Source: Stenotrophomonas sp. 169 (lineage in GTDB: Bacteria > Pseudomonadota > Gammaproteobacteria > Xanthomonadales > Xanthomonadaceae). Taken from it: a stretch of 64,000 nucleotides of DNA. Below, piece after piece: positions 47,165 to 50,265 of this stretch. Position 1 is the first letter of the stretch. The number at the start of each line of letters is the position of its first letter. The translations under genes and the position numbers were made by a program. The notes beneath the pieces were generated by a model. The model made no database searches. It had not been told where the DNA came from and saw only the letters and a list, made by a program, of their open reading frames with translations. The DNA lies in NCBI RefSeq assembly GCF_014621775.1, contig NZ_CP061204.1, positions 2,810,501 through 2,874,500 on the forward strand, given 5' to 3'.

Positions 47165-48856
47165 TTACGCCAGCGCGGATTCGTGCACGCCGGCAATCGC
47201 GCGGCCTGACGGGTCTGCCGCGTTGGCGAAGCTGGCATCCCACGCAATGGCCGCCGGCGACGAGCAGGCGATCGACTTGCCACCGGGCACCGTTTCGGCG
47301 GCGGCATGGCTGGGGAAATACTGCTCGAACACGTGGCGGTAGTAATACGCTTCTTTGGTCTGCGGTGGGTTGTGCGGGAAGCGCTTGTCCGCCGCGGCCA
47401 GCACCCGGTCACTGACCTGCGCCTCGGCGTGCGCCTTCAGGCCGTCGATCCACCCATAGCCCACGCCATCGCTGAACTGCTCTTTCTGACGCCACAGGAT
47501 GCTGTCCGGCAGGTAACCTTCGAAGGCTGCGCGCAGCACGCCCTTTTCCACCCGGCGCCCGCCAGATGCATCGCTGCCCACCATCTTGTGCACGGCATCG
47601 AAACGCATCGCCACATCGAGGAACTCGCGGTCCAGGAACGGCACGCGCGGCTCGACACCCCACGCCATCATCGACTTGTTCGCGCGCAGGCAGTCGTAGT
47701 TGCTCAGCGCATCAAGCTTGCGCACCAGCTCGGCATGGAACTCACGTGCATCCGGCGCCTTGTGGAAGTACAGGTAGCCCCCGAAGATTTCGTCGCTGCC
47801 CTCGCCCGACAGCACCATCTTCACCCCCATCGCCTTGATCCGACGTGCGAGCAGAAACATCGGCGTCGACGCCCGGATGGTGGTGACATCATAGGTCTCG
47901 ATATGACGGATCACCTCCGGCAGGACGTCCAGGCCTTCTTCGAAGGTGTATTCAAAGCCGTGGTGCACGGTGCCCAACGCTTCGGCGGCGATGGCCGCGG
48001 CGGCCAGGTCGGGTGAGCCCTTCAGGCCGATGGCGAAGGAATGCAGGCGCGGCCACCACGCCTCGCTCTCGCCGCCGTCTTCAATGCGCCTGCGCGCATA
48101 ACGCGCCGCCACGGCCGCCACCAGTGACGAATCCAGTCCGCCGGACAGCAGGACGCCGTACGGCACATCGCTCATCAACTGGCGTTCAACCGCACGCTCA
48201 AAGGCAACGCGCAGTTCGGCCAGATCCACCGGCGTGCCCTGCACGGCATCGTACTCACGCCAGGCCGGCTGGTAGTAGCGCACCAGTTCATCGCTGGCGC
48301 TGTCGTAGAAGTGGCCGGGTGGGAACTGCGCGGCGTCGGCACAGGTGTCGACCAATGCCTTCAGTTCGGACGCCACCCGCAGCCGTCCCTGCGCGTCATG
48401 GCCCCAGTACAGCGGCACCACGCCGATCGGGTCGCGCGCGATCAAAACGCGCGCCTTCGCCTTGTCCCACAGGGCGAAGGCGAAGATGCCGTTGATACGT
48501 TCCAGCCAGCGCGTCGGATCACCCTCGCGGTACAGCGCATTGATGACCTCGCAGTCCGAACCGGTCTGGAACGCGTAGGGCTGGGTGAGCTCGGCCTTCA
48601 GTTGCTGGTGGTTGTAGATTTCGCCGTTGACCGCCAGCGCCAGTTCTCCGTCTTCGGACAGCAGCGGCTGCGAGCCGCCGGCCGCGTCGACGATGGCGAG
48701 GCGCTCGTGCACCAGCAGGGCGCCGTCATCGAGATAGACCCCGCTCCAATCCGGTCCGCGATGGCGCTGACGCTGCGAGGATTCCAGCGCGTGGCGACGC
48801 AGCGCGGGGAGGTCGTCGCCGGCCTGCAGGCCGAATAATCCGAAGATCGAACACAT
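47165..48856 (-). CDS. asnB: asparagine synthase B (glutamine-hydrolysing)
   Basis: A 563-residue cytoplasmic enzyme making asparagine from aspartate, glutamine and ATP. Cys2 of MCSIFGLFG is the glutaminase nucleophile after Met removal, and RHRGPDWSGVY and NGEIYNHQQL belong to the class II amidotransferase domain. The synthetase domain has the PP-loop LLSGGLDSSLVAAVAA and SGEGSDEIFGGYLYFH. E. coli AsnB is 554 residues. ATG 48856 with CAGGAG Shine-Dalgarno is clear; the extended frame to 48937 would displace Cys2. A terminator and an Asn-rich leader frame lie directly upstream, indicating attenuation control. Confidence 0.95.
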   Translation of the reverse strand: MCSIFGLFGLQAGDDLPALRRHALESSQRQRHRGPDWSGVYLDDGALLVHERLAIVDAAGGSQPLLSEDGELALAVNGEIYNHQQLKAELTQPYAFQTGSDCEVINALYREGDPTRWLERINGIFAFALWDKAKARVLIARDPIGVVPLYWGHDAQGRLRVASELKALVDTCADAAQFPPGHFYDSASDELVRYYQPAWREYDAVQGTPVDLAELRVAFERAVERQLMSDVPYGVLLSGGLDSSLVAAVAARYARRRIEDGGESEAWWPRLHSFAIGLKGSPDLAAAAIAAEALGTVHHGFEYTFEEGLDVLPEVIRHIETYDVTTIRASTPMFLLARRIKAMGVKMVLSGEGSDEIFGGYLYFHKAPDAREFHAELVRKLDALSNYDCLRANKSMMAWGVEPRVPFLDREFLDVAMRFDAVHKMVGSDASGGRRVEKGVLRAAFEGYLPDSILWRQKEQFSDGVGYGWIDGLKAHAEAQVSDRVLAAADKRFPHNPPQTKEAYYYRHVFEQYFPSHAAAETVPGGKSIACSSPAAIAWDASFANAADPSGRAIAGVHESALA

Positions 48857-48937
48857 GGGGTGCAACTCCTGTTTGGGGGTGTATACGCGATGGGGGTGTT
48901 CGACCGGCCACCCTGGCCCGGGGTCTGCTCCGGGCAC

Positions 48938-48967
48938 AAAAAAACCCGCATCGGCCGATGCGGGTTT
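48938..48967 (-). terminator. attenuator terminator upstream of asnB
   Basis: On the minus strand AAACCCGCATCGGCCGATGC plus GGG, then seven T residues: a self-complementary stem (CCCGCAT/ATGCGGG and a CGGCCG centre) with a U tract. It lies 82 bp before the asnB start and 25 bp after the leader-peptide stop. Its 3' arm CGGCCGATGCGGG (48945-48957) is repeated exactly at 49012-49024 inside the leader frame, allowing a competing antiterminator. Confidence 0.9.
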
Positions 48968-48991
48968 CTGGTGTCCGGGTGTGATGGTGCT

Positions 48992-49093
48992 TTATCTACC
49001 CTGGGCGCAGTCCCGCATCGGCCGCGCACGATTATTCGCGCGCAGATTATTGCGGTTGGTGGTGGTGACGGCGGTGGCCAGGTGGCGGTGCAT
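48992..49093 (-). CDS. Asn-rich leader peptide of the asnB attenuator
   Basis: A 33-codon frame from ATG 49093 to TAA 48992, too short for normal gene finders. The core TTTNRNNLRANNR has five Asn codons (49055-49057, 49049-49051, 49046-49048, 49034-49036, 49031-49033), four of them AAT, which is rare in this GC-rich genome. Codons 17-19 and 22-24 can pair (CUGCGCGCG with CGUGCGCGG) around an AAUAAU loop. Codons 24-28 hold CGGCCGAUGCGGG, identical to the terminator's 3' arm. A ribosome stalled at Asn20/21 would mask the first arm and free the second. No Shine-Dalgarno is present; the ATG lies 7 bp after a -10 box, so translation may be leaderless. Confidence 0.75.
   Translation of the reverse strand: MHRHLATAVTTTNRNNLRANNRARPMRDCAQGR
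49012..49024 (-). promoter_or_regulatory. antiterminator segment (region 2) of the asnB attenuator
   Basis: CGGCCGATGCGGG on the minus strand pairs perfectly with region 3 (CCCGCATCGGCCG, 48952-48964), which otherwise forms the 5' arm of the terminator. Its first three bases also belong to the upstream 1:2 hairpin (49022-49030 with 49037-49045). Confidence 0.75.
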
Positions 49094-49100
49094 GGGATTG

Positions 49101-49129
49101 AACGTAGCGCGCCTGTGCGGCGGGTGCAA
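49101..49129 (-). promoter_or_regulatory. candidate promoter of the asnB leader transcript
   Basis: On the minus strand TTGCAC (49129-49124), a 17-bp spacer and TACGTT (49106-49101) are followed by CAATCCC and then the leader ATG. The predicted transcription start coincides with, or lies within a base or two of, the start codon. Confidence 0.5.
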
Positions 49130-49208
49130 CTGTTGCGTTGGCAACGAACGGTCATCGAGCGGCGGAGCCCCTCGCGGTGGCGGGCCGGGAAACGGGCTGC
49201 GACGTGGA

Positions 49209-49303
49209 CCGGACGGGGAGGCAATGCGGGGCACGCGTGAATCCGTCCATGGAGCTCTTCGCGGCTCCTGCCGCTCAAGGCCCCGCATTCCCTCCCCGTC
49301 CGG
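49209..49303. repeat. 23-bp inverted repeat with 49-bp loop
   Basis: CCGGACGGGGAGGCAATGCG continuing GGG (49209-49231) and its inverse at 49281-49303 match at 22 of 23 positions. It is not a GTAG REP. It lies between the divergent asnB leader and the Sel1 lipoprotein gene and could form a strong hairpin in RNA or a cruciform. Apart from this and the attenuator, I see nothing in the 551-bp interval 48857-49407. Confidence 0.8.
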
Positions 49304-49407
49304 CCCCTGACAGATTCCGATGGCCGGCAGCCGCGGAAAAAAGAGGAAGCGCGGGACCGCGCGATGCGAGCGGGACCGTGGGCGCCGTTGCGCGGATAAT
49401 GGGTGGG

Positions 49408-50265
49408 ATGAAACTACGTATCTTGCCTTTCGGCCTTGTCATCATGGTGCTGCTGCAGGCCTGCAGCAGTGTGCCGCGTACGCCTATCGCCCACGCTGCG
49501 CAGATCGAGCGCGAGGCCGCCGATGGGCGTGTCGATAGTGCGTTGGAGGCGGCCCAGCGCTATGAAATATTCAATGATCCGCGTGCGGTGTACTGGTACG
49601 AGCGCGCTGCGGCGGTGACGCCACGGACCTTCGATACCACGCGCGCCGAGTCGGCATTGGGGCGCATCTGGGAGAGTGGTCAACTGCTGCACGGTGATGG
49701 CCCGGATATCGTGCAGGCGTCGCCGTTGCGGGCGTCGCCGCGTCGCGCGGAACGCGCGTACCGCGCTTCGGCCGAGCACGGAAATGCGTTGGCGATGCTG
49801 GAACTGGCACGGTTCCACCGACTCCAGGGCGATGCGCGGCAAGCACTGCGCTGGGACCTGAGGGCAACGGTGTACAACCACATGTCGTCGGAATCTTCGC
49901 GACTGCCACAGGCCGTCGCACCGCAGCACGGACAGGAGCATCCGTTGGTCACCGATATCCGGGCACGTGCGCAGGCCGGGGATGTGGAGGCTCAGGTGGA
50001 TCTGGGCGCACTGCTTGAGACCGGTATCGGACTGGAGCGCGATGGCGTGCAGGCGCTCCAGTGGTATGAGCGGGCCGGCAACCGGGGCAACGTTTACGGG
50101 CAGTACTTCAGCGGATTGCTGCTGGGTCGTGGCCGGGCGGGCGTGACGCGCGATCTGGATGCAGCTGCCGGGTGGTTCGCAAAGGCCCATGCCCAGGATT
50201 TTCACCTGGCCGGCGAGGCGATATGGCGCAAAAGCATAGAGCCGCCGTTCTGGACGTTCGACTGA
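49408..50265 (+). CDS. Sel1/TPR-repeat lipoprotein
   Basis: A 285-residue protein with a lipoprotein signal (hydrophobic core FGLVIMVLLQAC, Cys19 after LQA). The rest consists of helical pairs, including two clear Sel1-like repeats near the C-terminus: AGDVEAQVDLGALLETGIGL and ALQWYERAGNRGNVYGQYFSGL (split for length as ALQWYERAGN, RGNVYGQYFSGL). Such proteins are protein-interaction scaffolds in the envelope; the function is unknown. ATG 49408 follows GGTGGG. Upstream frames lack conserved features. Confidence 0.8.
   Translation: MKLRILPFGLVIMVLLQACSSVPRTPIAHAAQIEREAADGRVDSALEAAQRYEIFNDPRAVYWYERAAAVTPRTFDTTRAESALGRIWESGQLLHGDGPDIVQASPLRASPRRAERAYRASAEHGNALAMLELARFHRLQGDARQALRWDLRATVYNHMSSESSRLPQAVAPQHGQEHPLVTDIRARAQAGDVEAQVDLGALLETGIGLERDGVQALQWYERAGNRGNVYGQYFSGLLLGRGRAGVTRDLDAAAGWFAKAHAQDFHLAGEAIWRKSIEPPFWTFD

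Follow-up and report, generated by a model that had tools for sequence, protein, structure and literature searches.

The asnB locus and its leader ORF

In this Stenotrophomonas genome, the asparagine synthetase gene asnB is preceded on its own strand by a short ORF rich in asparagine codons and by an intrinsic terminator. This arrangement raises the question of whether ORF and terminator together form an attenuator, in which the ribosome translating the leader reports the supply of asparagine to the polymerase that is about to transcribe asnB. A preliminary description of the locus proposed that they do, along classical lines. Here, we examine this proposal within the 64-kb stretch of DNA analysed (the window), in the rest of the genome, and in related genomes.

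A genome search returned a single full-length asnB match. The same genome contains asnS (over cut-off, 630 bits) and a tRNA-Asn(GUU) gene, no gatA over the cut-off, and no match to asnA. Charged tRNA-Asn should therefore depend on free asparagine, and ribosome stalling at Asn codons would be a sensible signal for asnB. The gene and the coding features of its leader are as follows.

47165–48856, minus strand: asnB, glutamine-hydrolysing asparagine synthetase B (NF006949 equivalog, 851 bits, cut-off 499)
48866–48870, minus strand: asnB ribosome site AGGAG, read from the sequence
48992–49093, minus strand: Asn-rich leader ORF, 33 codons, predicted leaderless (sequence and comparison across loci)
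49031–49057, minus strand: control codons, Asn 13 (49057–49055), Asn 15–16 (49051–49046), and Asn 20–21 (49036–49031) (sequence, comparison)

The leader ORF begins with an ATG at 49093–49091, encodes the 33-codon peptide MHRHLATAVTTTNRNNLRANNRARPMRDCAQGR, and has a stop codon that ends at 48992. Reading the sequence gave exactly the five Asn codons, four of them AAT, that had been claimed, coordinates included: AAC at codon 13 and AAT at codons 15, 16, 20, and 21. Of the 96 loci compared (see below), 33 have more than one possible leader ATG and two have none. In relatives, the Asn runs are retained while individual codons switch between AAC and AAT. Asn accounts for 20.2% of leader residues, Arg for 19.0%, and Ala for 16.7%. 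The C-terminal part of the peptide, which encodes one of the pairing regions described below (region 2), is well conserved within genera and changes together with that region between families. As a separate observation, AAT is over-used in the leaders, where it makes up 328 of 615 Asn codons (53%) versus 84 of 762 (11%) in asnB, although a single tRNA should decode both AAC and AAT.

The surroundings of the leader vary. In our genome, a Sel1-repeat gene on the plus strand (49387–50265) sits between dapE and asnB; in several relatives, for example at locus L036, the end of dapE was seen by eye directly upstream of asnB on the same strand. A long inverted repeat at 49205–49309, upstream of the leader, gives sub-threshold microRNA matches in Rfam.

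Competing hairpins and terminator

The following elements, numbered as regions 1 to 4, could pair with each other in the leader RNA.

49037–49045, minus strand: region 1, 5′ arm of the upstream hairpin, with its partner at 49030–49022
49012–49024, minus strand: region 2, first copy of CGGCCGATGCGGG, 5′ arm of the antiterminator, within the leader ORF (sequence, comparison, folding)
48952–48964, minus strand: region 3, CCCGCATCGGCCG, 3′ arm of the antiterminator and 5′ arm of the terminator (sequence, comparison)
48938–48967, minus strand: intrinsic terminator, comprising the hairpin 48967–48942, region 4 (48957–48945), and a T7 tract (48944–48938) (sequence, scan, covariation)

On the minus strand, CGGCCGATGCGGG occurs at 49024–49012 and again at 48957–48945, with its reverse complement at 48964–48952. 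The claim that an exact 13-nt repeat forms the 3′ arm of a terminator with seven Ts was thus borne out base for base and, with the reverse complement lying between the two copies, the 5′ arm of the terminator can indeed pair with either. The 13-nt sequence has three matches in the window when both strands are counted; 100 dinucleotide shuffles gave a mean of 0.05 matches and none reached three, and the repeat is therefore not due to chance. A scan of both strands of the window for perfect stems with a minimum of 8 bp and a T5 after the stem gave five, and only the one before asnB has its 3′ arm repeated upstream. With 10-bp arms, the scan found no stem whose arm is repeated, probably since the palindrome leaves no room for a loop at that length. 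A simple terminator scan missed the asnB terminator, probably since the stem includes part of the T-run, and a second scan listed it. Relative to dinucleotide shuffles, the folding energy of the leader has a z-score of −4.0 and that of the segment 48950–49039 a z-score of −5.6.

The upstream hairpin, said to overlap the first copy of the repeat, is also present: codons 17–19 (49045–49037) pair with 49030–49022 through nine pairs, two of which are G–U, and the overlap amounts to 3 nt only. Folding indicates that this 1:2 hairpin (codons 17–19 with 22–24) and the 2:3 antiterminator fit together in the window, and no trp-type 1:2 hairpin that would exclude 2:3 without a ribosome was found there. 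Since the two helices can coexist, the leader is not a classical exclusive switch in this species. Hence, the proposed full set of regions 1 to 4 stands as far as the arms and the terminator are concerned, but not in the mutual exclusion of 1:2 and 2:3. The locus combines a short leader ORF rich in codons for asparagine, which the enzyme encoded by the controlled gene makes; an intrinsic terminator between this ORF and the gene; and an antiterminator that shares the 5′ arm of the terminator and has its other arm inside the leader ORF.

Conservation and phylogenetic reach

The genus was sampled with 61 genomes, our own included; 60 have some AsnB match, and in 58 the match is full length. All 58 full-length loci (30 and a further 28) have an ORF upstream of asnB in which a 10-codon window holds 4 or more Asn. 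In a scan of named genomes, we kept the best 80 of more than 586 loci, of which 67 belong to Lysobacterales or evident relatives (L043 and L046, from vaguely named metagenome-assembled genomes, were taken as the latter) and 13 are outgroup by name. L075 was dropped because its sequence ends 60 nt upstream, which left 66 readable named loci; some genomes occur both among these and in the genus set. In 62 of the 66, the count reaches 4 Asn in 10 codons, and in the other four it is 3. The Asn-codon run predicted to be conserved upstream of asnB in relatives is thus present throughout, at 58/58 genus loci and, with at least 3 Asn, at 66/66 named loci. For the combined set of 96 loci, the best 10-codon count is at least 4 in 92 and 3 in the remaining four; a count of 4 was reached by 3 of 1920 shuffled versions of these upstream regions, and a count of 3 by 47. 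The best counts at the 13 outgroup loci range from 0 to 3, and three of these loci (L060, L072, and L099, at 80, 73, and 72%) encode an AsnB as similar as that of some Lysobacterales and have no leader. A terminator was found at 95 of the 96 loci by one scan and at the remaining one, L047, by another.

This type of AsnB occurs in 126 of 200 genomes across the order; in the class, E 1e-150 was reached in 3 of 143 genomes, our own included. To follow the leader outside the genus, 72 further upstream regions were read, 71 from the order list and one from the class search. Nine divergent members of the family were included, at least two of which are genomes already among the named loci; eight of the nine have 3 or more Asn, as do 3/3 genomes of family f143 and 1/2 of family f153. 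The leader is missing at G286, from the same family (AsnB 64% identity), and at G264, from f153 (65%). In deeper families of the order, 4 or more Asn are reached in 0/27 (f150) and 1/27 (f148) genomes; single genomes of three other families have 1–2, and the class genome has 3. A terminator lies within 200 nt of asnB in 28/28 of the further genus genomes, 8/9 of the family members, 2/3 of f143, 1/27 of f150, and 2/27 of f148. Given this distribution, a single origin of the element is most likely, close to the base of Lysobacteraceae, Rhodanobacteraceae, and f143. At one locus in f148 (L196, genome G277; one of 27 genomes), a short Asn-containing ORF ending in NTINTTNNRLLRSAGSF and then a terminator occur just before asnB, and this element may be a remote or remnant attenuator or an independent one.

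Pairing and covariation across loci

Pairing was assessed in two alignments, one of 22 Lysobacteraceae-type and one of 20 Rhodanobacteraceae-type leaders; the other 54 loci, including the Lysobacter-type ones, are in neither. In the Lysobacteraceae set, 99.2% of the cells of the 3:4 terminator helix are paired, three pairs are changed on both sides (seven double-change cells), and the covariation score was reached by 0/500 shuffles. The 2:3 helix is paired in 88.9% of cells, versus 22–48% when one arm is slid by 1–3 columns, and its covariation score was reached by 9/500 shuffles; double changes are limited to one pair (3 cells), which, given a shuffle mean of 0.9 pairs, is not above shuffles. 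The 1:2 helix is paired in 85.6% of cells. In the Rhodanobacteraceae set, 2:3 is paired in 84.9% of cells versus 34–59% when slid, with a covariation score that no shuffle reaches, and 3:4 is paired in 92.8%. The covarying pairs anticipated in the preliminary description are therefore, within these two alignments, strong for 3:4 and modest for 2:3. The 1:2 helix of Rhodanobacter was tried for the other Rhodanobacteraceae and rejected (62% of cells paired, covariation not above shuffles); by eye, Dyella and Luteibacter use another 1:2 register.

Beyond the alignments, the duplex between leader and terminator arm is at or below the 5% level of 60 composition shuffles at 78 of 95 loci, with a median z-score of −4.2; it is weak in the Lysobacter-type loci, the weakest of the set. 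In a fixed register around a 5-nt core, the 49 distinct arm pairs have 4.1 Watson–Crick pairs out of 10 in the flanks, versus 2.8 (SD 1.4) when arms are swapped, and the region 3 core lacks a leader partner in this register at 10 of 96 loci. For the stretch bounded by the first Asn codon and region 2, the median folding z-score is −2.5, with 34% of 86 loci above −1.5.

Promoter elements and predicted leaderless start

Two promoter-like hexamers lie immediately upstream of the leader ATG.

49124–49129, minus strand: −35-like TTGCAC (sequence; TTG[CT] conserved)
49101–49106, minus strand: −10-like TACGTT, with a 17-bp spacer to the −35 element, 7 nt upstream of the leader ATG

Promoter and ribosome-site counts refer to the 61 loci with one possible in-frame leader ATG. 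At all 61, TTG[CT] begins at −37 to −35 from this ATG, and at 58 a −10-like hexamer occurs 6–8 nt before it, compared with 2/366 control windows and 0/61 positions before asnB; the hexamer set was partly picked after inspection of the data, and a plain TAnnnT fits 41/61. An exact anti-Shine–Dalgarno match of at least 4 nt precedes only 8/61 leader ATGs versus 60/61 asnB ATGs. Because the promoter stands at a near-fixed spacing from the ATG and ribosome sites are rare, transcription is predicted to start at the leader AUG or no more than a few bases away, and the leader ORF is probably leaderless. Two further patterns were seen in this region: TTG[CT] at −51 in 30/61 loci, and an inverted repeat, GTTGC-N4-GCAAC, at 49132–49145 just upstream of the −35 element and, by eye, at other loci too. 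This repeat is perhaps the site of a regulator.

Geometry, folding states, and proposed switch

Over 95 loci, the first Asn codon lies a median of 37 nt, and the last a median of 9 nt, ahead of the start of region 2. From the end of region 2 to the stop codon the median distance is 6 nt, and from the stop to the start of the terminator 24 nt. With this placement of the control codons, stalling at Asn codons is predicted to free region 2, as had been suggested. The companion suggestion, that a ribosome at the stop codon covers region 2, agrees with the median geometry of the 95 loci; in our own leader, the stop codon lies 16–17 nt past region 2, so that cover is only partial and a ribosome there would reach only the end of the region.

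Attenuators are generally held to make their choice during transcription. After full-equilibrium folding (see below) had spoken mostly against the switch, folding before region 4 exists was used as a test, this being the relevant state for a kinetic choice. When a ribosome sits on the first Asn codon and the transcript extends as far as region 3, pairing of the 2:3 core is predicted in 93 of 95 nascent RNAs, L066 and L068 being the failures; in the same test on shuffled leaders, the per-locus mean exceeds one half at 50 of 95 loci. With a ribosome at the stop codon and region 4 present, 3:4 is preferred over other partners at 95/95 loci, and before region 4 is made the region 3 core is already paired upstream in 22/95. 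In RNAs without a ribosome, 2:3 is still predicted in 82/95. Full-equilibrium folding with region 4 included, the earlier test of the switch, speaks mostly against it: for a stall on the first Asn codon, the antiterminator wins at 24/95 loci and the terminator at 71/95, and for a stall on the last, the antiterminator wins at 8/95 and the terminator at 87/95. Since equilibrium favours the terminator, the choice must be made during transcription.

From the ORF, its Asn codons, the competing arms, and the terminator, with their conservation and geometry, all of which can be read directly from the sequences, we infer where transcription would start, where the ribosome would stall, where transcription would end, and in which direction asnB would be regulated. 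RNA polymerase would start at or near the leader AUG, and a ribosome would load on the leaderless 5′ end. When asparagine is scarce, this ribosome would stall at the first Asn codons and leave region 2 free to pair with region 3 as it emerges, thereby blocking the 3:4 terminator and allowing transcription of asnB. When asparagine is plentiful, the ribosome would move through region 2 as far as the stop codon as regions 3 and 4 are being made; 3:4 would then form, and transcription would end near 48938, giving an RNA of ~155 nt. As 1:2 does not block 2:3, an untranslated leader would tend to read through; in the trp attenuator, the untranslated leader terminates. Judged on its sequence, the element is very likely a ribosome-mediated transcription attenuator that tunes asnB to the charging of tRNA-Asn.

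Searches for related leaders

A pattern search of our genome for further Asn leaders gave five matches, including the asnB leader, versus four with the reversed pattern. A covariance model built from asnB leaders gave 12 hits in the genome at E up to 1: the asnB leader scored 131 bits, its reverse strand 34 bits, and none of the other matches listed exceeded 27 bits. One weak hit of this model led to a tRNA-Asn(GUU) gene at L235 (1126–1202) that adjoins a terminator resembling that of asnB. Before asnS of our genome, the best count was 2 Asn in 10 codons; for hisG, of which 21 loci were found and 11 examined, it was 0–3 His.

In two other genera, covariance-model hits of 38–39 bits lie before ilvC, for which attenuator-like leaders were recorded at the following positions.

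G000:C1:938982-939095, minus strand: attenuator-like ilvC leader in our genome, outside the window
L248 and 12 further genus loci, and L226 and L227: attenuator-like ilvC leaders

In 13 of 13 genomes of the genus, a leader ORF rich in Leu, Val, and Ile (such as LLVLVLISQPTGAG) followed by a T-run precedes ilvC, and in the 12 genomes where this could be read, TTGACA lies at the same distance from the leader ATG. The two leaders thus share an ORF, a T-run, and promoter spacing within the same genus, and differ in that ilvC uses Ile, Leu, and Val codons. There is about an even chance, in our estimate, that Lysobacteraceae and Rhodanobacteraceae use amino-acid attenuators on leaderless messages (for asnB, and for ilvC in the genus at least), with the asnB switch sensing both tRNA-Asn charging and the supply of ribosomes.

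Relation to known systems

T-boxes found before asparagine genes in Firmicutes read the charging of tRNA-Asn and exert control by termination; they bind uncharged tRNA directly and involve no leader peptide. Both systems would thus read tRNA-Asn charging, but the asnB leader would do so through a leader peptide, and no T-box is among the 22 Rfam matches obtained here at E up to 5. None of these 22 matches reaches the gathering score of a known leader or riboswitch. Among the leader families below it are His_leader (20.5 of 49 bits), Leu_leader (18 of 50 bits), and Thr_leader (17.5 of 55 bits).

The cysteine leader peptides of mycobacteria are leaderless. They are encoded by a short Cys-rich ORF upstream of biosynthesis genes, and no conserved terminator was found with them, according to PMC1262725. 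The asnB leader resembles them in being a short ORF rich in the cognate codon; the Cys leaders belong to Actinobacteria. In Sinorhizobium meliloti, the trpL leader RNA (rnTrpL) starts with the ATG of the leader ORF, as described in PMC7298713. The asnB leader RNA is likewise predicted to begin at the leader AUG, whereas trpL concerns tryptophan and an alphaproteobacterium. Ribosome-mediated attenuators are known for a list of amino-acid operons (PMC1183508). Like the enteric trp, his, leu, thr, ilv, and pheA attenuators, the asnB leader has an ORF with codons for the product, an antiterminator that competes with a terminator, and, as proposed, the ribosome as sensor; unlike them, it concerns asparagine, is predicted to be leaderless, and has, in the window, a 1:2 hairpin that does not exclude 2:3.

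No description of an asparagine leader-peptide attenuator was found in the open-access literature, supplements and most subscription journals aside. Asparagine is unmentioned in the main text of a survey of attenuators (PMC2965389), the work on Actinobacteria (PMC1262725), an attenuation model (PMC1183508), and an article on leader peptides (PMC4833913); a table in PMC3771888 has an entry for asparagine synthase AsnB2 with qRT-PCR values of 1.0. Hence, the kind of attenuator is known, its specificity for asparagine was not found described, and its leaderless start is probable.

Alternative explanations and implications

The same features could be read in other ways. The terminator might serve only to end transcription of the dap operon genes lying upstream, with the short ORF there by accident, and the end of dapE does lie directly upstream on the same strand in several relatives (L036, for example, by eye). 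In our genome, however, the opposite-strand Sel1-repeat gene separates dapE from asnB. The interval from dapE to the terminator also holds conserved Asn codons, a conserved promoter, and region 2, none of which a plain terminator needs, and this explanation is extremely unlikely. We also consider it highly improbable that the leader senses a general slowdown of translation, caused by drugs, cold, or other amino acids, instead of asparagine specifically. Arg and Ala are common among the leader residues too (19.0 and 16.7%), but Asn, at 20.2%, is placed where a stalled ribosome leaves region 2 free, and the controlled gene is an asparagine synthetase.

Two further possibilities accept the leader and assign it a different mode of action. 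In one, the 155-nt RNA or the peptide works chiefly in trans, with asnB attenuation as a secondary role; both the RNA and the peptide of the S. meliloti trp attenuator provide a reported precedent for this (PMC7298713), and the C-terminal part of the asnB leader peptide is well conserved within genera. That part, however, encodes region 2 and varies with it between families, so that RNA pairing can account for its conservation, and a role mainly in trans appears very unlikely. In the other, the leader senses starvation as proposed, but its ORF is translated from a longer 5′ UTR by ordinary initiation. In some Lysobacter-type leaders, the hexamer 6 nt ahead of the ATG is CAGGAT, which looks like a weak ribosome site as well as a promoter element, and the ATG is ambiguous at 33 of 96 loci and absent at two; the near-fixed distance of the −35 and −10 elements from the ATG, and the scarcity of ribosome-site matches of at least 4 nt at leader starts (8/61 vs 60/61 at asnB), argue against it, and we consider ordinary initiation unlikely. 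The asnB leader is a real, conserved element and almost certainly a functional attenuator.

If this is correct, the element would explain the control of asnB, the one full-length gene of its kind found in the genome, and asparagine would join the amino acids that Proteobacteria sense through leader-peptide attenuation. It would also represent a widely conserved natural case of attenuation on a predicted leaderless message, in which the timing of ribosome loading relative to that of the polymerase could be tested. For Stenotrophomonas, Xanthomonas, Lysobacter, Rhodanobacter, and their kin, the leader is a short conserved ORF that annotation may overlook.
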